A stretch of DNA of 64,000 nucleotides from Onchidella celtica (lineage: Eukaryota; Mollusca; Gastropoda; Systellommatophora; Onchidiidae): positions 33,491,961 to 33,555,960 of the forward strand of contig OZ007574.1 in the NCBI GenBank assembly GCA_963931925.1. The letters run 5' to 3'. Of this stretch, positions 118 through 57,978 are shown one piece after another (the stretch's first letter is position 1; every line of letters begins with the position of its first letter). The notes beneath the pieces are model-generated. The model searched no databases, was not told the origin of the DNA, and saw nothing but the letters and a program-made list of their open reading frames with translations. Position numbers and translations under genes: made by a program.

Positions 118-227
118 ACCTGGGTGGACGAGTTGTTACAATGGAATCCAGCCGAATATGGAGGCATCGATGAAATGCTCGTTTTCCAGACTGAAATATG
201 GAAGCCTGACATAATGTTAGAAAACAC
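118..227 (+). CDS. Gene 1 exon, loop A region (110 bp)
   Basis: Acceptor tttctcag before 118 and donor gtaagt at 228. It starts on a codon boundary (TWVDELLQWNPAEYGGID) and ends two bases into a codon. The 110-bp length equals the classical exon 4 of vertebrate nicotinic subunit genes. The loop A tyrosine of PDILLYN is replaced by glutamate (PDIMLEN). Confidence 0.9.
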
Positions 228-752: not shown

Positions 753-789
<37 letters not shown>

Positions 790-3700: not shown

Positions 3701-6700
3701 CACTCATTGCGTGTTCACGCTCACTTGATCCGAGTCCACTAAAGAGTACATTACAGTCCCTGTGGAAATAAATAATCTAGTTTTTTTTACAAGATAACTT
3801 TGCCCCTTGGTAAATCTCTGTTTCCAAATTTGGTAATAATAATAATAATACTACTTAGCAATTATAACCTGGCTTCATCCCGTTAGCAACCAGTCTGTAA
3901 GCGCTTTACAACATTAATATCATGTAAATCACACATACAATACATAGGCATACTCTGGGAAAACAAAAGCTTGATGGACACTCAGGTGGTAAAAAGATGA
4001 CTCTTGAGCTGCTGTTTAAAAGTCATTAAATGTTCAGTCTCTCTCAAAGACAGACGCAGAGAATTCCAAATCTGAGGCCCAGAGTAAGAAAAAGATTTTT
4101 CACCCATGGTCTTAGGGGACATCTTTGGAATTTTACACTTTCTAGTGTCTGCAGATGATCTAAGATGTCGTGAAAGTGCTTTGTGAGTCAAAAGATCACT
4201 TAAATAATTTGGTTTGTATATGCATTGTGACACAGGGTAACCAGCTTATATATTATTCGTTTTTCTACCGGCAGCCAGTGCAGGCTCTGCAGTAGAGATG
4301 ATGCATGATCTCTTTCCTTTTCTTAAGGATTTATTGTGCTGCATTATTCTGTACTTTTTGCAGTTTTTAAACAAAAAATTTCTGCGGTAGTTCAGCAAGT
4401 AATAAGTTAATGTAGTCGGATTGTGACAACATGAGCGAATTTGCCAATAGGGTGGCGTTGACAGTCGAAATAGTGTGCCTTATTTTACCTATTTTCTTGA
4501 TTTTCTATGTACATTCTTCGAATCAGGTGATTGACTTCATTGGTCATAGATAATTCATTATCGAACAAAACACCAAGATTTCTAGCGCATTTCCAAAATC
4601 GGATAGGGCAACTTGAATCATTTGTGTAGCGTTAAAAAAGGCATCATAGGATCAATTATACCGATTTTGCGCTTTCAGTATATTTCAAAAGTTTAACCTC
4701 TTTACTATTCCTTTTCCAAATGATACTCCTATTTAAGAAGGGTAAATGCCCCAGAACTGTCTTTGAATCGAGTCACTATTAATATATTTTTTATTAAAAG
4801 CTGAAACTTTGAAAGCAATTTTGTTAAAACTGTGGTCGTGTCACTTCCTGTCTTTCATAGGCTGTATCTTCTCTGCTCATTAAATTACAGCAATATTTCT
4901 TTTACAAAATGAAAGGACTATGAGTATCCTATTTGGTGATAACAATATCTCCATATCACCAGAATGCGCGAAGTGCCTCATTTTGTCCGGCGACTACACA
5001 TTTTGTTTCAAGTAAAAAGTGTCATCTCGTTTGAATTGCAAGGGGATTGCTTCATAACCTTACATTAAAATCGGTAAGAGGCAACAGTTGCAGATACACT
5101 AGGAGTTTACCAGTTTTTGATACCCAATATCTAGGGAGTAAATGACCTATTTATACATGTTAGAAAAAACTAAAACTCAATACTGTTACTGTTAGAAAAC
5201 AGTCCAAATTCATGGCATGTGCACAATTTTAGCATGGTAGTCCCAAATAATAATGATAAAATAATATTTGTTTCATGAAACGAGCTATAATTTGTGCTAT
5301 TTTACTCTGACAGTTGCGATTGCAGCTGGAATGGATAGGCTCATGGACCCTTTTCATTTACCGTCCTCCATAAAATGTGATTTGCAAACAAAATGGCGGC
5401 GTGCCCCATTTGTAGGGCGGAAGCGGTGGGCAACGGTCGAACGATGCCATCCTCTTGTTGGGCACCCAACTGTACAAACCCGTTACGTGCTGGTTCTGGC
5501 ATAAAAGTGCATCTTTGCTTAGACTGTGCACATATTCCGATGCCATCACTAGGGCAAGTGGAGGTTTTTGCCCTACACGGTGCTTTTCGAAGCCGTGCGG
5601 CTCCCCGCAAACAACCGTAACGCGGAAGTGAAAAGGGTCTACACATTTCCAGATCTCAAACCAAAAAAAGTGCGACGCTCAAATTACCACGAACAAGTTT
5701 AATTCATAGAATCAATGTAATAAGCAATAGATGCAAGCGTCACCCATAATAAACATTTAGTTTGTAATGAATATTGTCAGAATATATACAGTCAGTCTCA
5801 GGACTACCAAGGTTGGGCACGTATTCATTTGGCAGTGGCTACGGTTACGGCAGCCAGTGAATACAACTCACCATTTTTCTTTGTTTGGCTTTACTCCCGC
5901 TCGAGCGCCAATGGCTACCCCAGCCCCTTTTCGCCTGATCAGTCAATCTGACCACCGCCCATTGATACAAACTGACTAGACTCTCACGCCCCCCAAGTCC
6001 ATCTGACCATTCTAATGCACACTTGAATTGACAATTGGATGAACCAACAAAATTAATAAGTACAGAAAAAATAGACATTGTTTTTTTATCAAAAAGTGGC
6101 GCTCCTCCCGTTTTTTGTCTATTGGGATATGAGCGTAATCTGCCGTAAACGTAGCCACTCCGTTTTTTGTCTATTGGGATATGAGCGTAATCTGCCGTAA
6201 ACGTAGCCACTCCGTTTTTTTTCTATTGGGATATGAGCGTAATCTGCCGTAAACGTAGCCACTCCGTTTTTTTTCTATTGGGATATGAGCGTAATCTGCC
6301 GTAAACGTAGCCACTCCGTATTCATTTTTACCTACAACATAATTCCAGGGCCGTTTTAGCATCATTATGGGCCCCTGGGCAAAGCAATAGGATTTTCTTC
6401 CCCGCTCAAAAACCAATGTAAATTTGCATGTAGGGGCCCCACTAAAGCCTTGCGGCCCGTGGGCAACTGCCCAATGTGCCCGTACGTTTAGATGGCCCTG
6501 CATCATTCATATAACGGCTCGTAAATTTCAGTATTTCTCAGCAATCTTCATTTGCATTTTATTTCTCCAGGTCATTGAAGGTCGTACCAGAAGCCCCGGA
6601 TGTCTCTCTGGAGTTGCTGTTACCTAATGGGGAGTGGGATATTACTCATGCCAAGTTGGAAGGAATACGTTATCCTTCTACCTATAGGTATGTTATCCTA

Positions 6701-9700
6701 TAGGTATGTTATCCTATAGGTATGTTATCCTATAGGTATGTTATCCAAAGCGATTCCCCTTTCCCTTTTGCATTTGTTTTCCTTTTGTTTTCTTCAATCA
6801 TCCTGTTATGTAATGGTAAGGACCTTTGGTGGCTGCTAAACAGATATCGGTGGCAAAACACTCTGTCTTAAAGAGTTGTATATGGGATTTAAAAAGTAAA
6901 ATAGAAACAATGAAGAGAGTTTGGGGGGGGGGGGGGGAGAGCATAAAGAGGCGGGGTCAAAGTTGAAAAAATGAGAGTCTTAGAGGGAAAGACTGAGAGG
7001 GTTCACGGTGAGGGAATAACCGTGTGCTTGTATTTGAGGGTGATATAAGCCCACTGATATTTAAGTGTCATATACACCCATTGACATTTAAATGTTATTT
7101 CAACCCCTTGGCACGTAAGCGTCATAAAAACCCGCTGGCTTTCAGTGCCATATCAACCCACAGGCACTGTAAGTGTCATATGAACCTATTGGTATTTAAG
7201 TAGCATATAAACCCACTAGTATAAATATTTAAGTGTCACATAAACCCACTGGTATTTAAGTGTCATCTATGTCCAGTGGCATTTAAGTCTCATAATTGTA
7301 AGCCCCCTGGCATTAAAGTGGTATAAACCCACTGGCATTTAAATGTCATATAAACCCACTGGCATTTAAGTGCTATGTAAACCCGCTGGAATCTAAGTGT
7401 CATATAAACATACTGGCATTTAAGTGTCATATAAACCCACTGGTTTTTAAATGTCACATAAACCCACGGGCATTTAAGTGTTATAGAAACCCACTGACAT
7501 GCTAACCTGCTGGAAATGGGTGCAATTTAATGCCAGCTCGAAAGGAATCGAGCAAAAGAAGAGTATTAGGCTTCTAGTTCGTACACTTTGTTTCTCTAAA
7601 ATGTCTCCCCAGAACCGGCTATGTACACACCGGTGTTCAATTTACCTTCCATATGCACCGGAAACGATTCTTCTTTATCCTGAACACCTTGATCCCTGTG
7701 ATGCTGCTGTCCAATCTGAACGTCTTGGTGTTTATTCTACCGTCATCCTGCGGAGAGCGGATGGGGCTGGCTGTCACGGTTTTGCTAGCGTTTACCGTTT
7801 ACCTCAGTATCATCAGCGAAAACATACCGCAGACTTCAAAAGACATTTCCATTTATAGTAAGTCACTTTCAAGGTTAACATTTCTGCCCTCAAGTGTCAT
7901 TTCACATGATTTTTTTTTTTTAATGAAATTTGAAACTTGATATTTTAGGTCGGAGTGATTAAAAGTTTGTTTTCGTTTCTGTTCTCTTTTTAATAATACA
8001 TTTTGCGTGATTTCTAGAAAACTGATTTGACATTTATATTCTAAATTTAAAAAGTGTCATTTTTTGGTTTAGATTTGGGATAAGATGGAAAGTGATGCAA
8101 ATCTCAGCCGCTCTTAGGTTTTAAATCTGAATTTGTTTAAAATAGCCCTTTAGTTTTCACTGCCATCTTTATCCGACGACCAGATGGTTGCTATGGTGTT
8201 GAAGTTACCTTAAAAAAAAAAAAAACTTATTGAAGTAGGATATGCCATCCTATAGACCAGTGGTCCCCAAACCCCCGGGCCGCGGACCGATCGCGGTCCG
8301 TGGATCAATTGGTACTGGGCCGCACAAGAAACATTTAATTATCTCCATTTTATCTACTATCTGAGTTAAACTATTTTTTATTCAACTACGTTCGAAACAA
8401 CAACTCTGCCGGTGTTCTGGATTACAATCATGGCGGAATACCCTGAGATCGCCACCACAGCACTTAAGACCCTATTGCCATTTCCAAAATCTTATCTGTG
8501 TGAAGCGGGGTTTTCTGCAATGACAGCAACAAAAACAAAACAACAGAGTAAACTGGACATAAGCAATACACTTCGGGTGTCATTGTCTCCTATTACCCCC
8601 AGATGGAACCGTCTCGTTGCAGAAAAACAAGCTCAGGGTTCTCATTGATTTAGCCTTCTGGTGAGTTAAAATGTTAAATCACTCTATATTTTTATTTTTT
8701 TTTGGTGTAACTGTATTTTCTTTTGAAGGTATGTTTAAATACAATTAAATCAAAATTATTAAATTAAAACAATCTAAAATATAAATAATCAACGCCCCCC
8801 GCCCCCCCCCCCCCCCAGCGGGCCGCGGTAAAATTATCAAATGTTGACCGGTCCGCGGCAATAAAAAGGTTGGGGACCACTGCTATAGACGACAGAGCAT
8901 TCAATTCTACATGGGTTTGGGTCTTTATTTCATGAGGTTCCCTGCTCTTGGCATTTACACCTGACTTTTTTTGTTTTTAGTTTTCTTGTTAATGTTTTTG
9001 TGTATTTTTGTGGTAGGGATTTTTTTTTAATTTACCTCTAGTCAGCGGCCATGTTAGGCTTGCTCTTCTCGATTTCCAGCTGCCAAGATATCTTTACCGT
9101 GCGCAACGTGCACACGGACCTTCCGAGCTTTTCGTCCTTATCCGACAAGACCAGGTGCTTGATACTACCTACCATAGGATCAGGGGCAGGAATTACCAAA
9201 ATTCCAACACGCCTGCACCGACCAGGAGTCGAACCCAATGTCCTCGGTATGAGGCGAACTCCTTGCCTCTATATTAACATGTCCCCTTCAGCTCTCTGTG
9301 CAATCCGTATTTGGCGTTTTATATTTCCTGTCTTGCTTTTCTCCAGCCATCTACCTCACTGTACTGCTGAGTCTGAGTACGGCTTCTGTGGTGTGTGCAG
9401 GAATTGTGCTCAATATCCATTTCCGTGACCCTGATCAGCCGGTGCCCCAGTGCTTAATATCGTTCTTTGGCAGGATGTACGTGAACGAGAACATAGTTCA
9501 GTCAGAAATCAGGTAAGACCAGGACCGAATTAAGAGCTGTGGAGGCCCTAAGCACTTAACAGATTTTTGTGCCCCCTTATACTGTATTTTATGTAATGCA
9601 AACGATGAAGCGTTCTCCATTGAATGTATACGGCCACATTAGACACAGGACAATTTTTTTATACATCTAAAAATTTAAGGAAAGCAAATCTTATACACCA

Positions 9701-15097: not shown

Positions 15098-16718
15098 TAA
15101 TTTTTATTTTATTTTTTTCTTTAATTTATTTATATATATATTTTATTTTTTTCTTTAATTTATTTATATATATATTTTATTTTTTTCTTTAATTTATTTA
15201 TATATATATTTTATTTTTTTCTTTAATTTATTTATATATATATTTTATTTTTTTCTTTAATTTATTTATATATATATTTTATTTTTTTCTTTAATTTATT
15301 TATATATATATTTTATTTTTTTCTTTAATTTATTTATATATATATTTTATTTTTTTCTTTAATTTATTTATATATATATTTTATTTTTTTCTTTAATTTA
15401 TTTATATATATTTTATTTTTTTCTTTAATTTATTTATATATATATTTTATTTTTTTCTTTAATTTATTTATATATATATTTTATTTTTTTCTTTAATTTA
15501 TTTATGTATATATTTTATTTTTTTTTTTAATTTATTTATATATATATTTTATTTTTTTCTTTAATTTATTTATATATATATTTTATTTTTTTCTTTAATT
15601 TATTTATATATATATTTTATTTTTTTTTTTAATTTATTTATATATATATTTTATTTTTTTCTTTAATTTATTTATATATATATTTTATTTTTTTTTTTAA
15701 TTTATTTATATATATATTTTATTTTATTTTTTAATTTATTTATATATATATTTTATTTTTTTCTTTAATTTATTTATATATATATTTTATTTTTTTCTTT
15801 AATTTATTTATATATATATTTTATTTTTTTCTTTAATTTATTTATATATATATTTTATTTTTTTCTTTAATTTATTTATATATATATTTTATTTTTTTCT
15901 TTAATTTATTTATATATATATTTTATTTTTTTCTTTAATTTATTTATATATATATTTTATTTTTTTTTAAAATTTATTTATATATATATTTTATTTTTTT
16001 CTTTAATTTATTTATATATATTTTTTATTTTTTTCTTTAATTTATTTATATATATATTTTATTTTTTTCTTTAATTTATTTATATTTATTTTTTATTTTT
16101 TTCTTTAATTTATTTATATATATATTTTATTTTTTTCTTTAATTTATTTATATATATATTTTATTTTTTTCTTTAATTTATTTATATTTATATTTTATTT
16201 TTTTCTTTAATTTATTTATATATATATTTTATTTTTTTCTTTAATTTATTTATATATATATTTTATTTTTTTCTTTAATTTATTTATATATATATTTTAT
16301 TTTTTTCTTTAATTTATTTATATATATATTTTATTTTTTTCTTTAATTTATTTATATATATATTTTATTTTTTTCTTTAATTTATTTATATATATATTTT
16401 ATTTTTTTCTTTAATTTATTTATATATATATTTTATTTTTTTCTTTAATTTATTTATATATATATTTTATTTTTTTCTTTAATTTATTTATATATATATT
16501 TTATTTTTTTCTTTAATTTATTTATATATATATTTTATTTTTTTCTTTAATTTATTTATATATATATTTTATTTTTTTCTTTAATTTATTTATATATATA
16601 TTTTATTTTTTTCTTTAATTTATTTATATATATATTTTATTTTTTTCTTTAATTTATTTATATATATATTTTATTTTTTTCTTTAATTTATTTATATATA
16701 TATTTTATTTTTTTTTAA
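15098..16718. repeat. Satellite array, about 47 copies of a 34-bp AT-only unit
   Basis: The unit is ttaatttatttatatatata followed by ttttatttttttct. It repeats with period 34 for about 1.6 kb, with rare variants (tatttata, tttttttt in place of tttttctt, one shortened unit). Almost all C residues on this strand fall at one position per unit. Confidence 0.95.
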
Positions 16719-17429
16719 ATTATTTTATTCTTTTTTTTTTTTTGTATTGTTCTTGCTGAGACAATTATCATCTTCATCGTTTATTTTTGTGGCAACTTAT
16801 TTTGCTCTTAATTCCGTTCTTTCACTTTTTTTCTTTCCATTTTCTTCTTTTTTATTTTCAAGTAGTTAAATACGTTTCTTCTCCAACTTCTTGACAGGTT
16901 TGGTCACTTTTGAATAAAAGGCTGGGTTGCCATTTCTTTGTTCTCGCTGTGGTTTGTTTGTTCGTTTGTTCGTTTCTAGTTTCTTTCATTTGTTCCTTCT
17001 AAAAATATTTTGATGGTAGTTTCAGTAACGCAGACATGAAGAATAAGAAAAGAAACAAAATGATGAAAAGAAAAGATTGAAAGAACGGAAGCAAAATAAT
17101 GCAATGGAAACAAGAATAGGTTATACAAAAATAAACAAATAAAGAAAAAAAAAAGTGGGGGCGGGGGGAGGAGGAGGGGGGGGGGGCTGGGGAAAGACGA
17201 AGCAAACAAAAAGGGAAATAAGCGAATTTTTTTTTTTTTTTAATTTTAAGACTTGGCGCTGCAATTTTACAAACAAAAGTGGGGCTTAGAAAGATGGCAT
17301 TCCAAAAGGGTATTTCTTTTTAGGAAGTGTATATCCGTACAACATGTTTACCAAAAACGGCGACTGGTGAAGGTTTGCTGACACAAAACTTGGTACCGGT
17401 ATGATGTTCACGAATTTAAGGTGACAACA
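16719..17429. other. Intergenic sequence, low-complexity tracts
   Basis: Contains poly-T near 16730, a G-rich tract at 17157-17189 and poly-T at 17227-17241. No gene is seen. Confidence 0.6.
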
Positions 17430-31902: not shown

Positions 31903-32045
31903 TCACCATTGAAAGCTCTGAACACATCAGAAAGCTGAGGCACGATTTGCTCCACGACTACCATCGGGATATCTTGCCCGTACGCAACCAAAGCGTTCCT
32001 GTGACAGTTTCTGTTGGATTTTATCTCATCATGTTAGAACAATTG
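31903..32045 (+). CDS. Gene 2 exon 2, N-terminal helix and beta-1
   Basis: Acceptor ctgtttcag, donor gtgagt at 32046; enters in phase 1. It encodes IESSEHIRKLRHDLLHDYHR then PVRNQSVPVTVSVGFYLIML, equivalent to the LLxxYxxxxRPVxNxSxxVxVxxGLxLxQI block of the family. At 143 bp it is close to the usual exon 2 length of about 140-146 bp. Confidence 0.88.
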
Positions 32046-34108: not shown

Positions 34109-34183
<75 letters not shown>

Positions 34184-46100: not shown

Positions 46101-49100
46101 TTGGTATTTAATTGCCATATCAACCCATTGGTATTTAAGTACCATATAAACCCACTGGTATTTAAGTGTTATCCACTAGCCTGTTGGATAGACTTGCAAA
46201 TTCTTGCAAACTCGAAAAAAATCGAGCTGTAGACGAGTATTGAGCTTCAAGCCAGTCACTGCCAGTAACCATTCCTGATGTTCTTTGCTCCCAAAATGTC
46301 TCCCCAGAACCGGCGCGGTACACACCGTTCTGACGTTTAGATTGGAATTGTATCGGAAACGATTCTTCTACATCCCTTCTACTCTGGTTCCAGTGTTGCT
46401 GCTGTCTACTCTGAACGTCTTAGTGTTTATTCTGCCTTCAGACTGCGGAGAGCGGATGGGGCTAGCTATCACCCTTTTGCTAGCGTTTACCGTTTATCTC
46501 AGTATCATCAGTGAAAACATACCTGAGACATCACAACACATTTGTATCTTAAGTAAGTCCCTTTCATAGTTAACATTAGTGTGCTGAAGTGTCATTTCAC
46601 TCCAATTTTTATACTGAAATTTGAAACTTAATAAATACCATTAGGTATGAGTCACTGAAAGTTTGTTTCCGTTTTGCTTTATTTTTTTTTAATGTTCCTT
46701 ATTTTCCAGAAAACTCATTTGACATTTTTATTCTAAATCAGTAAAGTGTCTTTTTTTTTTTTTAAGTTTTGGGGCGAGATTGTGTAGATTTCAAATCCGA
46801 GGTGTACACTATGCCTTCGGATCCAATATGCTTTCGGCACCTCTCCAGTCGAAAGTCTGTATATGGAGGCAAATGAAGCGTCACTGTCCATCAGAAGAGA
46901 AACTCTCTCTTCAGTATGGATTAAAATTGTCTCCTCATCCAGACAATCCCGCTTACAATTTAGTTCTCAACCAAATACACATTTAAAATTTATAATCTTT
47001 TCAAGGTGTCACCCCTTCTGTTTGCCGTTGAAGTCAGTCTTTGCTGGCAAAGGCCGAAATCCGACCGTATGAGGAGGAAAATGACCCATTTCCTGCCATC
47101 CCACCACGGCTAAGTCATATTCCAAACATTATTTTAGATCTCGCGGCATGTCCGGAGAACAACACCAGGCCAGAAACCTACAAAGAAATGTTTAGATAGG
47201 TACTCAGTAAATACCCTGATCACAGGCCTTTTTACATAGGCGGCTCCAAAGACACATGATTCGGTAGGAGCCGCCTCATTCTCAAGTGCAGATTGCAAAA
47301 CCGAATGCCTCAGACTCAACCCCAAAGCCTGTCTTTACCGCTGAAATTCATGCTATCAACTTAGCCAATTCCCGACAGGGACTCTTCATTATCTTTTCTG
47401 ATTCGCTCTCCTACTCCCAGGCTTTAAAAACCCCAATATGAACACGCATGGAGTCAATAATCTGTTACAACGTCTTCATAAGCTGTCCAACAGGGAATAT
47501 GAAATTGTTCTCTGTTGGGTCCCTGGCCACACTGGCAAAAGAAACATTGAAACACCCACCACAACACCTAGAAATACCATACACTGACTTTAAACCCGCT
47601 ATTCATAACTTCATTACATCAAGATGACAGAAAAGATGGAATGAACAAACATCAAATAAACTACATTTTATCGAAGATCAACTTGGACAATGGACTCATG
47701 CCTCTCAACAAAATCGGAGAGATGAAATTGTCCTTAGTAGACCCCGTCCGAATCATATCCACCTCACACATCGTTCTTTTCTTAGGGGGATGATCCCCCC
47801 AGAATGTGTGGTATACAACTGCCAACTATCAATAAAACATTTTAACTGAATATGTAGACGTCATGAATCTCCGAAGAAGGTACAATGCCTGAGGGTCCAT
47901 GAAAGAATTATTTTCTGACATGGACCCGCAACGCATCCTGTCCTTTCTGAGAGAGGCTGAGATCTACAACTTGATTTAATAACTTTTACACTCGTTTTCA
48001 AAACTTTTTACAGATCTATACAGAACAACTGTTTTTTTTTTAGAATTTTACCAATGTGTAACAACTATATGATTGTATATAATTCTATGTTAAACTTAAA
48101 AGCTCTGAATATGAAATATAAACAAAGAAAGTGTACCCAAACAGACCGTGAAGGTTGCAAAGTGGCCGTTATCGTGCCGACGCGCCATAAAATCCAAAAC
48201 CCAAAAAGCAAAACAAATCGGATCCATGAAAGAATTACTTTCTGACGTGGACTCGCAGCGCGTCCTGTCCTTTCTGAAAGAGGCTAAGATCTACAACTTG
48301 ATTTAAAACCTTTTTTTTTTTTACAAAACTCTTTTCAAATCCATACAAAACAACTTTTGAGAATTTTACAAGTATAATCAAGTGTGTACGGAACTATTGA
48401 ATTCCACCAGTGAAATTTAGAGTGATGAAGCTCTGAATGCCAAACACAAATAAAGTACCCAAGCAGACCGTGAAAGGCGCAAAGTGGCCGTTGTCATGTC
48501 GACGCGCCTTAAAACCCAAATACAAACTCAAAACCCCTTATTGTTCATGATTGTCTTTATCCGAGGACCAAAATCTGCTACAGTGTTGAAGCTACTTTTT
48601 AAAAACCTCAGTCAGAATTTACGCCCTGTTATAGACGACAGATCATTCAATTCTCTATGTAATCCGTACTGGCTTTTTTTTATATTTCCTGTCTGTCTTT
48701 TCTCCAGCCATCTACCTTACTATACTGCTGGGTCTGAGCACGGCTTCTGTGGTATGTGCAGGAATTGTACTCAATGTCCATTTCCGTGACCCTGATCAGC
48801 CTGTGCCCCACTGCTTGATCTCGTTCTTTGGCAGCATTTGCCTGGACGAGGGAAAAATTAAGTTGAGATTGAGGTAAGACATAGAACAGTGCAGAGCCGT
48901 GAGTCCACCACACAAACCCCACACCCTCAAGCCATTTTTTAAGTCTTTGTGTGCCAATCACCGAGATATCGGTTCTTCCACTGGTCACGTTTGTGCCAAT
49001 CACCGATGTATCGGTGCACAAGAGTGCTGGGCTATTTTGTTTTGGGGAAGATAGAAAATTGATTTTCTGTTCATAAATGTTGCTGTAGTTAGTCTTCATT

Positions 49101-52100
49101 CACCTCCGCCACTATTTCCTTCCTGTATCAGCAAATGTACAAAAATTCATGGCACTCAAAGGGTTAAACTACTGTTGTGGTTCAGCGGCACCAACATCAA
49201 AATACCTCCTAAAAAAATCTTAAACACCTGAGTTTACGCACTTTTTCCGACAACAGTTGATTAAACTAGCAATGTGTAAAGAGAGACGAAGAACAAAATC
49301 TTTATCATGCTTTTCCACTTTACCCCTCCGAAAATGCCTTTTTTTGTTTTGTTGTGAGGCTCCAAAAAGTCGTTAGTAAATAGTAAAAATGTTATTAGTG
49401 TCCACGTAATTTATCGTCAAAAATTGAGGCAGAACACAAAATTTCGTAACACTGGGTTTCGCAGTTATAAAGTTTAAATGCTTACACGTTCGCCCTGTAG
49501 GTTCATTATATATTATGATAATTATGCTTCTCAAAATTTGTCATTCTCGTCCGGTTAAAGTTCAAAACTCAAATCTACCGAGTACTTGCTTTATATGAGA
49601 CATGCTCAGAAATTATGTTCAGGTAAGGTACGCAAGCATGCTTCAAATTTTAACATTTTTATTCATTCCGTGAATTGTTTCCATGATGGTGAAGAAATCA
49701 TATTTCAAAAGAAGATACTTCCGTTTGTTTTATTTTTTCAAGCTTGGGCAGGGGCTGGAGGGGGGAGGGGAGGAGGCTCAATTGTTGTGGCTCTTTTCGG
49801 TTAGCTTTCATTTTGGGAATTCATGTTCATCTCAGGGATCCACGTTAAGATAAGATAAGAATCACATTATTATCCCATAAGGGAAATTCTTTTTCGCAGA
49901 GTGTTTAACAGCACACACGTGGTGCACATATCTTACGTATCATTATATAAACAAATTCAATAAGTCAATTACAGACATACATGAAGTGACATGGTAAAGA
50001 ACCTTAGTGAAATGTGGCACACATCTAGTTCAAATGACTTGCTGAGGCGAATTGCGGGGGGCAAAAAGATCTTCTGTATCTTTCCCTGTTAGTTTTCATG
50101 TGCATCATTCTGTTGCTCTTGGGTGATCTAGAAATTTGATGAAACAGGGGATGGTGGCTGTCATTTAAGATGGACATGTATTTCTTCACACAAGCATTTG
50201 AGTACAGATGGTTAAAACTGACAAATGCCGTGTCTTTCATGGTAGACAGACAGGCGGGCAGGGCAGACGGACGGGTAGGTAGGTGGGAATATAGGTAGGT
50301 AGGTAGGTAGTTAGGTAGATAGGTAGGTAAACCGATTGATGTGGGCAGGTGGGTGCTTCATGATGACTCAATGGATTTAGATGCGGCAGCTAGTCACAAA
50401 CACTGTATCGTTAACGTACTTTCTCACAAAGCTATCCAATATCACAATTTTTACACTCATCCTCAATCTGCCCATCTATCCATTCATCCACTCACTAACA
50501 TGCTCTGGTCTACCCGCAGGAAACAGTCAGCTTGGAGCAAGGGCACACGCCTAAGCGACACGGAAAGGTCAGAAATTTATCTAAACAACAAACACATAAT
50601 TGTTATAGGTAGGATGTGCATGATGTCGCAGTGTTTTTGTTTTGGTCTTCCGAAACTAAAGACGCCAGGTGGATCAGCTGATTAGTGTAACTTCGAGATA
50701 TGTCTAAACGGTTAAAATGTCTTCTGGTTGCCACGTAGTTGATTGTTATGACAAGGGTGGAAAGGATGGATCCAGGATGCTCAGATTCCCTACCATCCGT
50801 GTAAACAAGGGAAAGGAAGTGAAAGAATTAACCGAGCCTCTCCCATTAAACATGTACACACGTGCCGTTATTTACAGTAGCGAACTAGTTTTAGCTCGCC
50901 GACGGTTGGTTGGTGGCGCCTCCCGTGTTCGCAGTTCAAATCAGCTAACGAATCAAAATCAGTGCCACAATCGCCATGGTGATGCGTGGGTCTGGTCACT
51001 AAAGATGGCGGATATGCGCATTCTACCCATAGTCCCTGCAGAAATAAATGAACAAATATTTTTCAAGCTAACTCCGCCCTTGGGTAATTCGTGTGTCCTA
51101 TTTAGTATGGCCTTCTGAACCAGTTTGTCTTAAGTAAAAATGTTTTTGCGTTTAAATTGCAAAAATGGACAACGAGATTGCTTTGTAATTTTATATTTTC
51201 AATTTTTGAATTTAAATGAACACTAGGAATTTTACTGAACACGTCATGACAGTGAGATAACCACGATTGGAGATATATATATATCGATAATACTGGTTTT
51301 GGTTTTAGTCAATATAAGATGTTCACAGTGCATGATAAAAATGTATGGTAGTATGGTATAGATATGTAGCAACTATCGGGGCGGACTATCAGAATGCCCA
51401 TAACCGATTTCTTTACAATAAACTCCTAGTGTTCACGCAAGTCTTCTGTTATTGATTTTAATGCAAGATTATTAAAAGCAATCCCTTCACGACTTTTTCC
51501 TTCTGTTGCAATTTTAAAAGAGAAAATATTTTCAGTTAGACAAACTGGTTTAGAATGCCATTCCAAATTTGAATACACGTACTTACCCAGGGGTGAAGTT
51601 ATCCTGAAAAAAAAAAAAGACAACTTATAGTTCATTTCCGTCTGTCAAGAGTATAATCATGCGATATTTCCTCAGATAATTGACAAGTGTTTTCAATCGT
51701 TATGATAAGCTGATCACAGTGACTGATCTACTATGAAACAAATGAAGTGTAAGCTTCAGGGCCCCAAATCCCGGAGGAATTTTGGATGTTGCCCTACTTT
51801 TGCTGGTTGCGAAGGGGCCCCATAACAGTTCAAGCTTTCATCATCATCATTGCCTTTCTCACCCTGGATCAGGGTATAGGCCACCAACAAACACTTTCCA
51901 TCCCTCTCTATCATGGGCCAGCCTCTTTACATTATTCCAAGTCTTTCCGCTTCGTTGCACATCATTTTCTCTGGCTCTTCTCCACGTTCCGCGCGGCCTT
52001 CCTCTTGATCTCTTGCCCTGGGGATTCCAATCCAATACCTTCTTCGTGATGTTGTTTCCTGGCCTCCTGAGAGTGTGGCCGATCCATCTCCATCGCCTCC

Positions 52101-55100
52101 TACCAATTTCCTCTCTGACTGGGCTCTGTCTTGTTCTTTTCCATACAATTTCATTGCTGACCTTGTCTGTCCATCTGATCTTAAGTAGCTTCCTCAAACA
52201 TCTGTTGATGAAAACTTGGATTCTCTTTATGCAGGCCTGGGACGCATTCCAAGTCTCACATCCATACAACAGGACTGACTTCACGTTCGAGTTGAATATC
52301 CTCAGCTTTGTTTTTAGAGATATATCCTTGGTTCTCCAAATCTTGCTTAAGGACGTGAAAGCTGCCTGTGCCTTTCCAATTCGTGCTTTGACTTCTGCCT
52401 CTGTTCCTCCCTTATTGTCAATGATACTACCAAGATAGCAGAAGGACTCTACATCTTCCAGTGGTTGATCTCCTACTCTGACTTGTGCGCTTGGGGGTGC
52501 AACAATTTTTAGGACCTTCGACTTCGCAGGATGTATCCTCAATCCAATAGATTCTGAAATTTTGTTTAGAGCTGTAGTCTTTGCTTGCATCTGGTCGTGT
52601 GTGTGCGACAATAGTGCCAAGTCATCTGCAAAATCTAGATCGTCCAGCTGTGTCCATGGGGTCCATTGTATGCCATTTCTTCCTCCACTGGTGGTTTCTT
52701 TCATAAGCCAATCAATCACCAGGATAAACAGAAATGGGGACAGCAAACAACCCTGCCTAACACCAGTCTTGATATCAAAGCTGTCAGTAAGCTCGCAATC
52801 GTGTACGACTCTGCAACTTGTCCCCTCGTACATGCTCTTGATAAGGTTCACCATCTTCTCTGGGATTCCATAATGTCTCAATATTCTCCACAGTGTTTCT
52901 CTATCGATGCTATCAAAGGCCTTCTCGTAGTCAAGGAAGTTCACTATCAGTTGGGAGTTCCACTCTAGCGACTGCTCTACTATGATTCTCAGCGTGGCGA
53001 TCTGGTCGGTGGTTGATCGATTACTCCTGAAACCAGCTTGCTCCTCACGAAGTTTTTGGTCTGTTGCATTCTGTATTCGCTTGAGAATAATCCGGTTGAA
53101 AACCTTTCCTGGGATGGAGAGAAGTGTGATTCCTCTGTAGTTACTACAATTGCTGAGGTCCCCTTTTTTTGGAAGCTTCACGGGGTGTCCTTCCTTCCAG
53201 TCCTTTGGAAACTTGCCTCCGATCCAAATCCTCGAGAATAGTGAGTGCAGACCCTCTGCAGCCCCAGCAGCATCTGCCTTCAGCGCCTCTGGTGGGATCT
53301 GGTCTGGTCCAGCTGCCTTGCCTCGATTTAACTGCTTTATGGCATCATTAATCTCTGCTTTAGTCGGAGGGTCGCAACTGATCGGTAAATCATTTCTTGC
53401 GGGTAGAATGTCGGGTGGGTTGCTTGGTGGAGGTCTGTTCAAGAGGCTGTTAAAATGTTCTATCCATCTTTTTGCCTGAGCTTCCTTTCCAAAAATAGCC
53501 TTCCTGTTGTAATCCTTGACAGGAACTTCAGGTTTTCCATATTTTCCAGCAAGAGTCTTTGTAGTCTGGTAGAGGATCCTCATGTGTCCTCCTGTTGCTG
53601 CCTTCTCTGCTTTCTCTGCTAACATTCCTATGAACTCCTCTTTGTCTTTTTTAATTGATTTTTTGACCTCTTTAGCTGATGCTCGGTACTCTTCCTGGTT
53701 ACCAACTCTTGAGCTTCTTGTACGACTTGCATTTACCTGTTCTTTTAGGTCTCTTCTTATCCTTATCAAGTCCAGTGATTTTTGACTGATCCATTCCTTG
53801 TGTTCCACTTTCTTTTCCCCAAGAACATCCTGGCATGTCGATGTAAATACTCCTTTTACCTTAGCCCAGTGAGTCTCCAAATCTACTGTCTCTTCGAGGT
53901 CAACAAGGGGTTTGAATCTATTCCTCAGTGTCAGCTGGAACTCTTCCTTCTTGTCTCCATCCAGAAGGCTCACTTGAAACTTTCTCCTCTTTGTTCCTGC
54001 TCTGGTACCTTGTTTCTTGAGGCGGAGTTTGAGTCTTGCCAGCAGCATGTGATGGTCAGATCCAACATCAGCTCCTCTCTGTACTATGACATCCTCCAGT
54101 GAGCGTCTGAATCGTCGGGTGATGTAAAAGTGGTCAATCTGGTTTTCAGTTACTCCATCCGGTGAAATCCAAGTGGCTTTATGGATCCTCTTGTGTGGGA
54201 ATACTGAACCTCCAATCACATAGCTGTTAAATGCGCAGAAACTTGCAAACCGCTCTCCATTCTCATTCATTTGTCCCAAACCATTGCACCCCATAATGTC
54301 CTCATACCCTGTATTGTCCTGTCTTATCTTGGCATTGGCGTCTCCCATTATAATGTTCACATCTTTTCTTGGCAATGTGTCAGCTATTTCCTGAAGCTGG
54401 TTGTAGAAATCGTCCTTGTCCTCATCGGTTGCTTCATTTGTTGGGGCGTATATCTGCACAATGTTCATGTTGATGTTCTTGTTCTTTGTAGTAAATAATG
54501 CCAATATAATTCTCCTTCCGTAGGGTTCCCATCCCCTCAGTGACCTCTGGGCGTGCTTGCTCAAAATGATCGCTACTCCTTCTGTATGCTTTTTGTCCTC
54601 CCTTCCAGAATACAAAATCTTTTCCCCAGAAGTAAGTTGTTTCAGTCCGGACTGTATCCAGCGGGTCTCGCTAACTCCATGTATGTGCAGTCTGTATCGC
54701 CTCATCTCCATTGTAACCTGGGCACTCTTTCCTGCTTCATACATGGAGCGGACATTCCACGACGCAATCCGGAGTGACTTGTTTGATGAAGGAGCAGTCA
54801 GGCCAGTGGAGTCCTTTCGGCTTTGTCCATTGTCCTTCATTGAATCTACAGGTGCAGATGCTCCCCCTTCTCCCAAGATAAAAGACTGATTTAAAGTATT
54901 TGCTTGTGTTTCTGTAACTGGTTTATTTTTACAGGGTGGGTAGTTGGCCCACCGCCAACTGGCTCTTCTCGGGAGACCAGGACCTTTGCACCTTAAGTCG
55001 CCTCTTACGACACGCAGTATCACGTCAGATGTATTCTTTGCTGTCCCTCTTCTGCAAGAGGGCCCCGCATCTGCACGGGCGAGTTCAAGCTTTAGGGTCC

Positions 55101-57978
55101 CAAAAATAATGTAGGTCCGCCACTACTAGCTGAACGACTTAGATGCTACTATTGTTCACAACTAATGAATTGCTAAAATGCACTTTCTCATGACGCCATC
55201 CGTTGTCACAATTGTGCATTCTGCATTTTGGCACTCATCCTTCATCTGGATCATCCACTCACTAACGTGCTCTGGTTTATCCATAGGCGAAATGACAGTC
55301 CGGTAGCATATATTATGGAAAGGTTTGTCATTACCCCAAACAATGAACAAAATAATCATACAAGATTTCCTATTTAATGATTTTTTTTCCTGAAGGCAAC
55401 TTTAAATAACCGGCAAATGTGTCCAATAGTTAGGCTTCATTTACATTACCAAAATTTAGAAGTAGACATTTAATCATTGCTGCCTCGCCATTTTGAACTT
55501 GTAACCAAAAAAGAAAGAAAAGTATTTGTGCAAAATGTAGTAGCAGAAAGATAGGCACAATATAAGAAATTGACGAAGTTTTTAAAAGCCAAAGCCACAG
55601 AAAATCTGTGGGATCTCAGCGCAGCTTGATGCAAAGTCAAAATATGACACAAGGCAAAAGTTGTAGGTAGTGAAGACTTGTGTAAGAAATAATATCAAAA
55701 TGATACAATAAAACGCAAACTAAAGCTTTTCGGTGTTTAAACCTTCATATGGAAAGGAAACCAAAGATAATAGGTGGCAAAATTGAACCAATAAAACAAT
55801 GACACGTTTTTAAAAAATGTAGAATATAAATTAATATGAGCTCTTGTATGCGAGCCCACACTTAGATTTTCACCACATTGATTCAATATTCTACTTTTCT
55901 TTTTATTTGTATAATTGTTTTATTGGTTAAGGTTTAAGAACCGAAAGCTTGATTTGTCTTCCCTTTTCCTTTGCGTTTTATTGTAAGGCTTTGGTATTAT
56001 GCCTTACGCGCGGCTTTGCTATCTACAACTGTTTCTTTTCGCCATATTGTAACTTCACAATATGACCAATAGATTCTTAAAGTCTTTTCAAATAAACTGC
56101 CATTTCAAACTTCGAACTTATCCTTGTTCAAAGTGAATAAGGCCAAGATTTACGAGCTATAGAAATTGGGAGAAACTAGGACAATGTTGATGAGACGAAG
56201 TAAAGTAGGAGATGATATATTAGACAGACAGATTATTATGAACAAAACATGGTCATTAGTGAACATTTTCTTTTTCATTTTGGTCTACATGTTATTTATG
56301 ATAAACCAGTGTATTACTTTGTTTTTCGCAGGGGAAGAACCCAGTTTGATCATTCGGAACCCAGCCATCAAAATCATTCAAATGTAAGGCAAGTTGTTAT
56401 GGTAGTCACTGCTTAATCTTTTGTCGAGTGAAAAAAAAAATGCACGTTGACATGGCTCTTTGAATGTAATATGGATCGAGTTTAATCTGATTGATTTCCA
56501 AGTGGCGGCAGTGAAAAGAAAGGACTGTATTTTCAAGAGTCAACAGTATTTTTTGTTGTTGTTGTTTTTGGTGCTGCTGCTATTAAATTTTGTCGATGCC
56601 AGATTTCAAAGTGGACAACTCAACAATCCTAATGTTTTGCAATGCATTATAAAAGTAAGGTTAATATTTAGTGTATGTGCGCGTGTAGTGCCCTCCTGTT
56701 GTGACTTTGAACTGAGCAGTGAACACTAGATCTAAAACCGAGACTTCCCTTGTTTTGTTTTGAACTATGTTATGTCGTCACTTCCGTCGGGCTGAGGTAT
56801 TGAGCCCCACGACTTTACTGTATTGTGTGTCCCAATTGTGACCATGTAAGACCAAGAAACGTCGTGAGCCCTGTCATTTGTGTAATAAAACTGTCGCGGT
56901 GAGACTTGTGAAACGATGTTCTCGTCTGTGTTGATCAAGCTGTGGTTTGTGGACTCTGTAAAGTTTAATTATGGAACTCTCACTGATCAGCATATTCATG
57001 GTTATACCAAAAATTATACCCTTTCTTCGGTAAAAAAGACAATTTCAGTGAATAATGTGGATTGTTTTATCATTCCCACATAACAATTTCTAGCACACAT
57101 ACGCCAGCCTTCCCCAATATTACTTACTTTTCTAACTTGCATGCATCATGGCCGTACCGAGCAGTTTTGGACCAATCAGATTTCCTCCATTTTACATGAA
57201 TATGTCATCTTTTGGCCAACATGCCAGTCGTTTCAATATCTAAGCTTTGTCTTTCAAACAGAATCTAGAACAGTATTATGGTACGGTTTTCGATAACACC
57301 ACTAAAACGTAATGCTAAATAATTTCAACAAAAAGCCTCCTGCCAGTCCCGAACTCGTGTAAGTGGCAAGACTATTAAGTTTTTGAGGCTAAAGTTCTCA
57401 CTGGGCAAGAACAACTCTTTCCTGCTGTTTATTTGTTTGTTTACTTTATTTACGATTGCCTTGTGTCATGGTGCTGTTTTGTCCGACATGTACTTATTAA
57501 CGCTATTTATTTGTGCCCTCTGGTTCCACCCCAGCACCAGAAAACGCCACGAACGAAACAATTCACTTCCGAAACAGAGGTTGAGGATGAAACCAAAGAG
57601 GAGGCGGTTACCGCCAAAGCCGCCGACACCGCCAACAGCGGTGCCAACAAAGACGTGCCTGACCAAGTTCGAACACAACAAAATGACACCGCCGGCGACC
57701 CTGCCACCGGCGGACTTGCAACGGAAAATGAAACGGTGACGGTTGCAGAGGAAGAGGACCCCTCCGGCGCTCAGGTCATACGAGACAAGAAGAGGTCGCT
57801 CATCGGGGTTTTTGCTCATGAAATGAGGAAACTGATTGATCATATAAAGAAAGGGCAAGATGATCGCGACATCACGTGGTACGACATTGCCTGTGCCATG
57901 GATCGCTTCTTCTTCTGGGTATTTTTGATCGCCACCGGTTCCGTCAATATAATAGTATTGCTCTTGTTGACTTACTGA
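31903..57978 (+). CDS. Nicotinic-acetylcholine-receptor-like subunit, gene 2 (eleven exons, first exon not found)
   Basis: Cys-loop channel subunit paralogous to gene 1. Exons 31903-32045, 35533-35577, 43013-43122, 44435-44614, 45563-45679, 46308-46552, 48708-48873, 50520-50567, 55287-55322, 56332-56383 and 57541-57978 join in frame to 525 codons plus stop. It begins with the N-terminal helix region (SSEHIRKLRHDLLHDYHRDI) and a glycosylation sequon NQS, followed by loop D (NGYLKL, Tyr in place of the usual Trp), loop A (PDILLEN), the Cys-loop CVVDITKYPFDAQTC, loop B LTW, TM1-3, a loop of about 175 residues and TM4. There is no vicinal Cys pair. The signal-peptide exon must end in phase 1, as in classical family members, but I could not identify it. 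Introns are swollen by at least seven transposon insertions. Confidence 0.9.
32428..32784. mobile_element. MITE with ggcaggtctccc ends
   Basis: Inverted ends: left ggcaggtctcccgaacttgg at about 32428, complement of right ggcaggtctcccaaacgtgg ending near 32782. About 355 bp, no coding capacity. It abuts the next inverted-repeat element. Confidence 0.6.
32790..33106. mobile_element. MITE/foldback with agagtggagtcgctt ends
   Basis: Left cagagtggagtcgctttcac and the complement of the right end cagagtggagtcgcttgcac are about 40-bp inverted repeats around 315 bp, with a further internal cactctgttcc copy. No target duplication was identified. Confidence 0.6.
33107..33960 (+). other. Gene 2 intron sequence, nothing recognised
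   Basis: Part of the intron between exons 2 and 3. I see no conserved coding or repeat family here. Confidence 0.5.
33962..35330 (-). mobile_element. L2-like LINE, 5'-truncated and decayed
   Basis: Minus-strand pieces: DTIDHKILLNRL and FGVPQGSVLGPLLYTLYMQP (35324-35076), the YADDT box with an in-frame stop just after it (about 35060), SWMNENKLKMNEEKTEILVC (about 34950) and RAFSVWAPAVWNALPPNIRN (about 34330). The 3' tail is the (AAT)n-rich run at 33968-33985 after a tatatagcgc block. A (CT)n microsatellite is embedded in its 3' region. Confidence 0.82.
34111..34182. repeat. (CT)n microsatellite, about 36 units
   Basis: An almost perfect dinucleotide tract, flanked by (CA)n-like sequence on both sides. 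Confidence 0.95.
35533..35577 (+). CDS. Gene 2 exon 3, loop D (45 bp)
   Basis: Acceptor gctttcag, donor gtaagt at 35578. It encodes fifteen codons, NMKAQIMSTNGYLKL, matching DEKNQxLTTNxWLxx. The 45-bp size is the classical exon 3 size. The loop D tryptophan of agonist-binding subunits is tyrosine here. Confidence 0.9.
35937..37380 (-). mobile_element. Solo LTR (family 2)
   Basis: A fossil LTR of about 1.44 kb. On the minus strand it begins tgtaacagggtgacag and ends catcaca, flanked by a perfect 5-bp target duplication cttgc (35932-35936, 37381-37385). A minus-strand TATA box (gggtataaatcccc) lies near 37090, consistent with a U3 promoter. No internal coding region. It sits in the gene 2 intron after exon 3. 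Confidence 0.75.
36351..36498. repeat. About 3 x 46-bp tandem repeat
   Basis: Units contain aagccacgatgtcgttaatc and aaagtacaagaagttgagaa. It lies inside the family 2 LTR. Confidence 0.9.
37492..40311 (+). mobile_element. L2-clade LINE ORF (endonuclease-reverse transcriptase, 939 codons)
   Basis: A single open frame with endonuclease motifs RLGGGIAVIFRKSL, FHFVCIYRASGS, VLLGDLNFHFD, HILDLVII and LISDHKTIVLDID, then reverse transcriptase motifs LQNYRPVSNLPFLSKILEKV, LLDLSAAFDTIDHE, YGVPQGSVLGPILFTIY and YHFYADDTQLY, and the C-terminal EKSFSFLGPTIWNTLP block. The first third of the endonuclease (with the catalytic Asn and Glu of the APE fold) is missing before FKIKSFPRKN, so the copy is 5'-truncated although its frame is open. 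The 3' end gcgctatataaatgcaatat and (TTA)n at 40448-40469 is a classic L2 tail. It lies in sense orientation in a gene 2 intron. Confidence 0.88.
40470..41954 (+). other. Gene 2 intron sequence before exon 4
   Basis: Contains a G18-20 run at about 41443-41461. The last 90 bp (41870-41954) align with the first 90 bp of the window, the corresponding intron of gene 1. Nothing else is recognised. Confidence 0.6.
41955..42995 (+). mobile_element. PIF/Harbinger-like DNA transposon (1.04 kb)
   Basis: Terminal inverted repeats share catgctcaagccgaaa at the left and cacgctcaagccgaatt in complement at the right. A frame at 42087-42467 reads KKKKRKSLWTKQWLL followed by LSPLDFQNFLRMDGL, which matches the N-terminal RRRWWVRPWL...ELxxxDxxxFxxFLRM block of Harbinger transposases; the catalytic part is missing. 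The 3-bp target duplication expected for Harbinger is not clear. The right end stops 17 bp before exon 4 of gene 2; gene 1 has no insertion there. Confidence 0.7.
43013..43122 (+). CDS. Gene 2 exon 4, loop A region (110 bp)
   Basis: Acceptor atttctcag, donor gtgagt at 43123. It encodes AWIDEFLQWKPADYGGID and ends with PDILLEN. A DNA transposon ends only 17 bp upstream of the first base. Confidence 0.92.
43491..43833. mobile_element. MITE family with agagagtat ends, copy 2
   Basis: Terminal inverted repeats (agagagtatagatgtataga; complement of right agagagtatacatagagaga). Aligned with the copy at 21526-21833. It lies in the intron after exon 4 of gene 2. Confidence 0.75.
44435..44614 (+). CDS. 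Gene 2 exon, Cys-loop and loop B (180 bp)
   Basis: Acceptor tctgacag, donor gtgagt at 44615; phase 2 at both ends, same length as in gene 1. It encodes the Cys-loop and YLTWMRTN. Confidence 0.92.
45053..45116. repeat. 2 x 32-bp tandem repeat
   Basis: Two units with ggtcccagattcggcggagt. Confidence 0.9.
45563..45679 (+). CDS. Gene 2 exon, NGEWD to loop C (117 bp)
   Basis: Acceptor tttctccag, donor gtatga at 45680. It encodes DVLPNGEWDITSTGVFEHQY and PTTYR, without vicinal cysteines. Confidence 0.9.
45968..46175 (+). repeat. Intronic minisatellite, about 7-8 units of about 27 bp
   Basis: Same unit (tataaacccattggtattta) and same intron position as 7041-7500 in gene 1. Confidence 0.88.
46308..46552 (+). 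CDS. Gene 2 exon, TM1-TM2 (245 bp)
   Basis: Acceptor ctccccag, donor gtaagt at 46553. The TM2 pore positions match gene 1: -1' Glu, 2' Gly, 6' Thr, 9' Leu, 13' Val, 20' Glu. Confidence 0.93.
46780..48520 (+). mobile_element. I/Nimb-like LINE 3' part with RNase H domain, decayed
   Basis: Starts with remnants of SLQYGLKLSPHPDNPAYN (46905), then an RNase H domain: VFTAEIHAINLANS (47325), IFSDSLSYSQAL (47390) and IVLCWVPGHTG (47505), then the C-terminal HIHLTHRSFLRGMIPPECVV (47755). Carrying an RNase H after the RT is typical of the I/Nimb group, known from snails as Nimbus. Several frame changes and stops are seen. The 3' end gtgccgacgcgcc is duplicated (see separate entry). It lies in the intron between the TM1-2 and TM3 exons of gene 2. 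Confidence 0.78.
47880..48520 (+). repeat. Tandem duplication of the LINE 3' end, about 2 x 315 bp
   Basis: Blocks such as cctgtcctttctgagagagg / cctgtcctttctgaaagagg (47938, 48264) and gcaaagtggccgtt (48157, 48479) repeat with the same spacing. Identity is moderate, so the duplication is old or came in with a variant tail. Confidence 0.8.
48708..48873 (+). CDS. Gene 2 exon, TM3 (166 bp)
   Basis: Acceptor ttctccag, donor gtaaga at 48874. It encodes IYLTILLGLSTASVVCAGIV and NVHFRDPDQPVPHC. Confidence 0.9.
49848..50262 (-). mobile_element. Rex1-like LINE 3' fragment
   Basis: The minus-strand frame 50240-50025 gives SILNDSHHPLFHQISRS and MKTNRERYRRSFCPPQF, the same C-terminus as the LINE at 22624-25190. 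Its tail ttatcttatcttaac is at 49848-49860. 5'-truncated; in a gene 2 intron. Confidence 0.8.
50270..50335. repeat. (TAGG)n-type microsatellite
   Basis: Imperfect aggtaggtaggt tract immediately 5' of the paralogous exon A block. Confidence 0.85.
50520..50567 (+). CDS. Gene 2 cytoplasmic-loop exon A (48 bp)
   Basis: Acceptor tacccgcag, donor gtcaga at 50568; phase 2 to 2, coding for KQSAWSKGTRLSDTE. Upstream intron sequence aligns with that before exon B at 55287, so the two exons look like a tandem exon duplication. Skipping it would keep the frame. Confidence 0.65.
50604..51031 (+). mobile_element. THAP-headed MITE (type B), copy 2
   Basis: Ends tataggtaggatgtgc and (complement) tatgggtagaatgcgc form inverted repeats 428 bp apart. 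ATG at 50717 opens MSSGCHVVDCYDKGGKDGSR and continues to LRFPTIRVNKGKEVKELTE, a THAP-like N-terminus homologous to copy 1. It starts 36 bp after the donor of loop exon A of gene 2. Confidence 0.68.
51839..55081 (-). mobile_element. Full-length RTE-like LINE with intact ORF
   Basis: 3.24 kb flanked by a perfect 12-bp target duplication agttcaagcttt (51827-51838, 55082-55093), with an (ATG)n tail at its 3' end (51839-51850). The length, single ORF and short UTRs fit the RTE clade. A younger insertion within the intron between loop exons A and B of gene 2, antisense to the gene. Confidence 0.9.
51859..55023 (-). CDS. RTE-like endonuclease-reverse transcriptase (1054 codons)
   Basis: Open over the whole element. 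The apurinic-type endonuclease spans residues of about 90-340: LRIASWNVRSMYEAGKSAQ, HGVSETRWIQS, VQIYAPTNEATDEDKDDFYN, VNIIMGDANAKI, ATWISPDGVTENQIDHFYIT and GSDHHMLLARL. Reverse transcriptase motifs: NYRGITLLSIPGKVFNRII, EQAGFRSNRSTTDQI, VNFLDYEKAFDSIDRE, TGVRQGCLLSPFLFILVIDW and LDFADDLALLSHT, with the FADD catalytic pair. The C-terminal part has CETWNASQACIKRIQ and RRWRWIGHTLRR. All key residues are present, so it could encode active enzyme; whether it is transcribed is unknown. RTE clade by size and tail; a Nimb-like placement is not excluded. Confidence 0.88.
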   Translation of the reverse strand: MILRVVRGDLRCKGPGLPRRASWRWANYPPCKNKPVTETQANTLNQSFILGEGGASAPVDSMKDNGQSRKDSTGLTAPSSNKSLRIASWNVRSMYEAGKSAQVTMEMRRYRLHIHGVSETRWIQSGLKQLTSGEKILYSGREDKKHTEGVAIILSKHAQRSLRGWEPYGRRIILALFTTKNKNINMNIVQIYAPTNEATDEDKDDFYNQLQEIADTLPRKDVNIIMGDANAKIRQDNTGYEDIMGCNGLGQMNENGERFASFCAFNSYVIGGSVFPHKRIHKATWISPDGVTENQIDHFYITRRFRRSLEDVIVQRGADVGSDHHMLLARLKLRLKKQGTRAGTKRRKFQVSLLDGDKKEEFQLTLRNRFKPLVDLEETVDLETHWAKVKGVFTSTCQDVLGEKKVEHKEWISQKSLDLIRIRRDLKEQVNASRTRSSRVGNQEEYRASAKEVKKSIKKDKEEFIGMLAEKAEKAATGGHMRILYQTTKTLAGKYGKPEVPVKDYNRKAIFGKEAQAKRWIEHFNSLLNRPPPSNPPDILPARNDLPISCDPPTKAEINDAIKQLNRGKAAGPDQIPPEALKADAAGAAEGLHSLFSRIWIGGKFPKDWKEGHPVKLPKKGDLSNCSNYRGITLLSIPGKVFNRIILKRIQNATDQKLREEQAGFRSNRSTTDQIATLRIIVEQSLEWNSQLIVNFLDYEKAFDSIDRETLWRILRHYGIPEKMVNLIKSMYEGTSCRVVHDCELTDSFDIKTGVRQGCLLSPFLFILVIDWLMKETTSGGRNGIQWTPWTQLDDLDFADDLALLSHTHDQMQAKTTALNKISESIGLRIHPAKSKVLKIVAPPSAQVRVGDQPLEDVESFCYLGSIIDNKGGTEAEVKARIGKAQAAFTSLSKIWRTKDISLKTKLRIFNSNVKSVLLYGCETWNASQACIKRIQVFINRCLRKLLKIRWTDKVSNEIVWKRTRQSPVREEIGRRRWRWIGHTLRRPGNNITKKVLDWNPQGKRSRGRPRGTWRRARENDVQRSGKTWNNVKRLAHDREGWKVFVGGLYPDPG
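55287..55322 (+). CDS. Gene 2 cytoplasmic-loop exon B (36 bp)
   Basis: Acceptor tatccatag, weaker donor gtttgt at 55323; phase 2 to 2, coding for RNDSPVAYIME. Its upstream block shares catccactcactaac and tgctctgg with exon A. The gene 1 counterpart near 10190 has lost a usable exon. Confidence 0.55.
56332..56383 (+). CDS. Gene 2 cytoplasmic-loop exon C (52 bp)
   Basis: Acceptor tttttcgcag, donor gtaagg at 56384; phase 2 to 0, coding for GRTQFDHSEPSHQNHSN. It is orthologous in position to the 25-bp exon of gene 1. Confidence 0.7.
57541..57978 (+). CDS. Gene 2 last exon, loop, amphipathic helix and TM4
   Basis: The acceptor is agcaccag before 57541; accag six bases upstream (exon start 57535) is also in phase and adds two residues. 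It encodes an Ala/Thr/Glu-rich loop, LIGVFAHEMRKLIDHIKKG, then ITWYDIACAMDRF and TM4 (FWVFLIATGSVNIIVLLLL). Confidence 0.88.
   Translation, partial: KTPRTKQFTSETEVEDETKEEAVTAKAADTANSGANKDVPDQVRTQQNDTAGDPATGGLATENETVTVAEEEDPSGAQVIRDKKRSLIGVFAHEMRKLIDHIKKGQDDRDITWYDIACAMDRFFFWVFLIATGSVNIIVLLLLTY

Follow-up and report, generated by a model that had tools for sequence, protein, structure and literature searches.

In muscle nicotinic acetylcholine receptors (nAChRs) the β, γ, δ and ε subunits are accessory to α subunits in heteropentamers. The muscle-type non-alpha subunits have no loop C cysteine pair and do not provide the principal face of the acetylcholine (ACh) site. A cation-selective pore is recognized by Glu at the -1' position and by the absence of an anion-channel-type insertion before TM2. 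Chemotactile receptors of cephalopods are also derived from nAChRs, and these are duplicated and have divergent pockets. In the oyster Crassostrea gigas, 72 of 132 nAChRs are found in tandem arrays; the cysteine pair is kept in 33 of the 132 and is missing from the other 99 (PMC6896357). Another lophotrochozoan subunit, the nAChR-like Alpo4 of the annelid Alvinella pompejana, uses its loop B Trp to hold a sterol detergent in the orthosteric site (PMC10338036).

The window, meaning the whole stretch of 64,000 nucleotides analysed here, is C8:33491961-33555960 in the 1.14 Gb genome of the gastropod Onchidella celtica. In keeping with a mollusc, the genome has 33 matches to the haemocyanin beta-sandwich domain (Pfam PF14830), a domain typical of molluscs, and every one is on contig C7. 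Gene 1 and gene 2, both on the + strand of the window, encode nicotinic-like (nAChR) subunits. The two are probably lineage-specific, tandemly duplicated molluscan non-alpha subunits that, judged from their sequences, would act as accessory members of cation-conducting heteropentamers. They had been described as a tandem pair. The tandem order is right, but the two are only the last of at least six head-to-tail genes. A Pfam domain search and a search of the genome with the TM exon of gene 2 place the six-gene array on one strand at C8:33.25-33.55 Mb, in the order c1 (33.25 Mb), c2 (33.30), c3 (33.35), c4 (33.47), gene 1 and gene 2. Relatives dispersed elsewhere number at least three, at C3:43.04 Mb, C6:32.39 Mb and C8:21.04 Mb, with 65, 62 and 60% identity to the gene 2 TM exon. 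The next dispersed gene by E-value has 45% and c1 itself 48%; certain C7 genes reach 55-57%, but over part of the exon only. All of these belong to a large family, since the Pfam search gave at least 140 Cys-loop receptor TM matches in the genome. Contigs C15, C7 and C9 hold more large clusters of Cys-loop receptor matches, several with long open frames. When the gene 1 and gene 2 regions were compared on the plus strand, 19 distinct DNA blocks were found (from 24 match rows, six of which overlap on a minisatellite and exon 7). The blocks keep their order and include introns, and the two genes therefore originated by segmental tandem duplication.

Seven matched exons were recovered for each gene, and in both they measure 143, 45, 110, 180, 117, 245 and 166 bp. 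All fourteen have AG/GT borders, and joining them produces no stops or frameshifts. The joined proteins have 334 residues each, 224 of them at identical positions (67% protein identity). Exons 2 and 3 of gene 1 precede the window by 5 to 6 kb. The feature starts within it at position 118, as the sequence-only reading had it, with exon 4 of gene 1 (118-227, 110 bp, bounded by AG/GT and equal in length to its gene 2 counterpart). This exon encodes loop A, with the Glu codon at 220-222. Exon 5 (2597-2776) carries the Cys-loop and the loop B Trp, exon 6 (6571-6687) the fast-evolving loops F and C, exon 7 (7613-7857) TM1-TM2 with the 2' Gly codon at 7764-7766, and exon 8 (9347-9512) TM3. The last exon (open frame 11705-12256, 5' border uncertain) holds TM4 preceded by the last part of the M3-M4 loop. 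Gene 2 lies wholly downstream on the same strand. Its exon 2 (31903-32045), part of the N-terminal ligand-binding domain, pairs with the gene 1 exon upstream of the window. There follow exon 3 (35533-35577, 45 bp, loop D with the Tyr codon at 35566-35568), exon 4 (43013-43122, loop A Glu codon 43115-43117), exon 5 (44435-44614, Cys-loop and loop B Trp), exon 6 (45563-45679, loops F and C), exon 7 (46308-46552, TM1-TM2, 2' Gly codon 46459-46461), exon 8 (48708-48873, TM3) and a last exon with the M3-M4 loop end and TM4 (open frame 57379-57978, 5' border again uncertain). A first exon, for the signal peptide, was not found for either gene. Between the TM3 and TM4 exons, acceptors with a good pyrimidine tract are all out of phase, and those in phase have no such tract; a small exon is therefore probably missing there. 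One bridging candidate, suggested by alignment near 10230 and 56190, was ruled out by stops in gene 2.

Both genes belong to the nAChR branch of the Cys-loop receptors. The Pfam ligand-binding domain (Neur_chan_LBD) was matched with E values of 4.7e-48 for gene 1 and 4.0e-48 for gene 2, and the membrane domain (Neur_chan_memb) with 4.9e-22 and 1.1e-22, the latter matches extending through TM3. The Cys-loop and four TMs read earlier in both genes were recovered when the proteins were re-derived from the exons and by the Pfam domains, with TM4 assigned by position, hydrophobicity and the similarity of gene 1 to gene 2 and not by a Pfam match. For gene 1, the one compared with solved structures, the best 47 of the 60 listed (352 matched) are nAChR subunits; the α7 subunit heads them at 6.3e-57, and the first 5-HT3A is at 1.5e-40. 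Neither gene qualifies as an nAChR alpha subunit, as the adjacent loop C Cys pair and the loop A Tyr are both missing.

The pocket residues described earlier are present. At loop A, WKPDIMLEN in gene 1 and WQPDILLEN in gene 2 align with WKPDILLYN of α7, so that Glu stands in place of Tyr. The loop B Trp is kept in both (LSW and LTW), and neither joined protein contains an adjacent Cys pair, nor did exons 6 and 7 of c1-c4 show one. Gene 2 has Tyr at loop D (NGYLKL), as had been noted. Gene 1 has the same residue (NMKSQIMTTNGYLKL), encoded in an exon upstream of the window.

Across the array and its relatives these positions behave differently. Loop A is Tyr in c1, Asp in c2 and c3, and Glu in c4, gene 1, gene 2 and the C3 and C8:21.04 Mb relatives; for the C6:32.39 Mb relative no loop A exon was found within 3.25 kb. 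An acid (Glu or Asp) is thus present in 7 of the 8 clade members read, in contrast to none of 22 other genes read. The sample behind this count was 27 matches listed, of which two are clade members and one (reverse strand of L089) was excluded as a chance match; the non-clade readings are 19 plus L007, L008 and L065, whereas the matches of L067 and L069 were truncated and give no reading. An acidic loop A is a real marker of the clade in this genome. Loop B is Trp in 8 of 9 clade members and Phe in c2. In the five array genes read at loop D, Tyr is found in gene 1, gene 2 and probably c1 (where exon 3 is a weak match, E 0.05), and Trp in c2 and c3.

The pore entrance has Glu at -1', Arg at 0' and Gly at 2', and CGERMG aligns without a gap to SGEKIS of α7, leaving no insertion before TM2. 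This pore signature is of the cation type, and cation selectivity would be expected from it. The 2' Gly itself is present in both genes as first read (TM2 CGERMGLAV in gene 1 and CGERMGLAI in gene 2). The view that it is unusual does not survive comparison within the same genome: among 54 sampled TM2 exons (54 of the 83 matches listed for the gene 2 TM exon, not a random draw) the counts at 2' are 15 Ser, 14 Gly, 13 Thr, 5 Ala, 2 Cys, 2 Val, and one each of Gln, Met and Ile. Gly also occupies 2' in a muscle-type beta subunit. The array, from c1 to gene 2, reads I, T, V, A, G, G at this position, and the dispersed relatives have G (C3), A (C8:21.04 Mb) and S (C6). As a clade marker 2' Gly was rejected, with 11 of its 14 sampled carriers outside the clade and c4 combining loop A Glu with 2' Ala; inside the clade its value as a mark may be limited to gene 1, gene 2 and the C3 gene. 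Single-residue oddities in a molluscan nAChR should be judged against the genome's own large family.

Two trees bear on how these residues arose. The first used TM1-TM2 only (52 rows, 75 columns, the 2' column still included, and rows below 55 residues left out, three of which, L052, L054 and L062, have 2' Gly). The array genes with the C3 and C6 relatives form one group of eight at 97/95, and the C8:21.04 Mb gene joins next at 97/72. On the best TM tree 2' Gly requires 6 changes, and 4-6 over the bootstrap trees; the well supported branches force 3. The second, smaller tree was built from three joined exons in 13 rows, after deletion of the loop A and 2' columns. It unites the nine clade members at 93/96, just below the tool's own mark for firm support, and places gene 1, gene 2 and the C3 gene together at 83/86. 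Loop A acid takes 2 changes on this tree, where the C6 gene was scored non-acidic for lack of data, and well supported branches force 1, but only 5% of bootstrap trees bring the rows with an acidic loop A together. The acid may therefore have arisen once. The sequence-only reading had proposed a subfamily defined by loop A Glu together with 2' Gly; the clade and, as its mark, the loop A acid (Glu or Asp) hold up, and 2' Gly drops out as a defining mark. That reading over-interpreted the pore and under-read the extent of the feature. The expansion is ordinary and lineage-specific, with the acidic loop A as its one useful clade marker. In a literature search of partial coverage (titles and the starts of abstracts) the clade was not named.

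The residues that seemed odd are not new to the family. Among the sequences of solved structures, an epsilon subunit has the loop A Glu (WLPEIVLENN), and a non-neuronal beta subunit has the loop D Tyr (STKVYLDLEW) and the 2' Gly (GEKMGLSIF), as the two window genes do; every one of these oddities thus has a precedent in a known subunit. We take these two to be the muscle-type subunits. In the vertebrate muscle-type receptor the three residues are split over two subunits, whereas in the window genes they occur all together. The muscle-type subunits are not orthologous to the window genes, which fall in a separate mollusc clade (in the TM tree muscle beta clusters with beta2, away from them), and the likeness is one of parallel change.

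With such parallels known, the two genes most likely encode ordinary helper subunits and not a new kind of receptor. Their products, whose principal face would not by itself complete an ACh site, would fill accessory or structural positions next to alpha subunits in cation-conducting heteropentamers. The 2' side chain (I, T, V, A, G, G) may then tune permeation from paralogue to paralogue. Dependence on other subunits, which had been offered earlier as a possibility, appears the likeliest condition for both. The accessory role is favoured by the six-gene array, the intact exons, the low dN/dS, the muscle-type precedents, the clade support and the oyster parallels. On the other side, the loop B Trp kept in nearly all members is not obviously needed by a purely structural principal face, the loop D Tyr (gene 1, gene 2, probably c1) alters the complementary face too, and the muscle-type precedents are parallel changes, not orthology.

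The oyster offers a close parallel for the expansion as a whole. There too the family is large, arranged in tandem arrays and mostly without the Cys pair (PMC6896357). In contrast to the intron-rich array in O. celtica, arrayed copies are intron-poor in 68% of cases in C. gigas and 82% in Pinctada fucata martensii (PMC6896357). The portions of that article consulted contain no discussion of an acid at loop A.

Selection has not acted evenly on these genes. In the three pairwise comparisons among gene 1, gene 2 and c4, dN/dS over five exons is 0.34-0.42 overall, with 0.22-0.35 in exons 4, 5 and 7 (loop A, Cys-loop and TM1-TM2) and 0.35-0.57 in exon 8, some of the exon blocks reaching a base or two into an intron. 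All three genes are constrained by purifying selection. In exon 6 (loops F and C) the ratio is 0.82-0.87, versus 0.27-0.35 for the other four exons pooled. Codon shuffling of exon 6 against the rest gave p values of 0.050, 0.023 and 0.013 for dN/dS and of 0.0006 or less for dN, all post hoc, as exon 6 was picked after the per-exon values had been seen. This agonist-lid region is relaxed or diversifying, two states that the data cannot separate. Among control pairs from the same genome, L007-L008 has the loop F/C excess (1.10 vs 0.47 and 0.10) and L057-L064 lacks it (0.47 vs 0.54 and 0.38). Silent sites are saturated in L003-L004 and L004-L005, which have little or no dN excess in loops F/C, and L001-L002 was excluded because its Cys-loop was not placed. 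With the excess present in one of two informative control pairs, it is therefore not specific to the clade.

A fast-evolving lid could accompany a changed agonist, in which the acid of loop A and the Trp of loop B would together bind an amine, some other organic cation or a molecule from the environment. Chemoreceptors derived from nAChRs exist, and together with the orphan Alpo4 they are what this explanation can be likened to, the cephalopod chemotactile receptors by description only. We regard it as possible though rather unlikely. The acid is nearly constant in the clade while the loop B Trp stays, and exon 6 is the exon that stands out in dN/dS, but the epsilon subunit has a loop A Glu too and the L007-L008 control has the same excess, though L057-L064 does not. 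Alpo4 (8bx5) is instructive on both sides. It is the fourth solved-structure match of the gene 1 loop D to loop B region, and it resembles the window genes as a lophotrochozoan nAChR-like subunit with a loop B Trp, through which its orthosteric ligand is held (PMC10338036). Its pocket, however, has aromatic residues in loops A, C and D (Phe in loop A, Tyr residues in loop C, Trp in loop D), whereas the window genes have an acid at loop A (PMC10338036). A bolder version joins pocket and pore: the replacement of the loop A Tyr by an acid, with the loop B Trp kept, would give a charged pocket for a non-ACh ligand, and the 2' series of the array would be a graded permeation set. This combination is doubtful. 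The array is a natural series differing at the 2' pore residue, and useful as such for testing permeation tuning.

Decay into redundant duplicates with no distinct function is improbable. Certain features would suit it: the gene 1 exon 6 donor lies inside a tandem repeat of perfect 16-bp units, the loop F/C exon evolves at a nearly neutral rate, and the M3-M4 link lacks a fitting splice solution. Against these stand the seven joined exons of both genes, free of stops and frameshifts, and the low dN/dS of the loop A, Cys-loop and TM1-TM2 exons in all three pairs. A special subfamily marked jointly by 2' Gly and loop A Glu can hardly be upheld, for although gene 1, gene 2 and the C3 gene have both residues and group together with both columns removed, the neighbour c4 pairs its Glu with Ala and most sampled carriers of 2' Gly lie outside the clade. 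The two genes are better seen as accessory non-alpha subunits.

The window also contains repeats. At 6681-6746 a 16-bp unit (CCTATAGGTATGTTAT) occurs four times without mismatch and runs across the end of gene 1 exon 6. The splice donor of that exon is therefore repeated; read-through to the later donors meets a stop. No tandem repeat of this 16-bp type appears at gene 2 exon 6 in the repeat listing. In both genes a 27-bp minisatellite shortly precedes the TM1-TM2 exon; the two, at 7032-7500 (about 17 copies) and 45970-46168 (about 7), are closely similar. At 15133-16743 an AT-rich satellite repeats a 34-bp unit about 48 times at 97% match. Three long coding stretches of non-LTR retrotransposons (endonuclease and reverse transcriptase) are found at 37474-40311 (+), in a gene 2 intron, at 51859-55122 (-), between the TM3 and TM4 exons of gene 2, and at 60109-63393 (-), this last one split over two frames. 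The final 2390 bp of the window (61611-64000) are 98.9% identical to C8:33464001-33466389, beside c4, in a match that reaches the ends of both compared stretches; it covers part of a reverse-transcriptase/endonuclease element, which suggests recent transposition.
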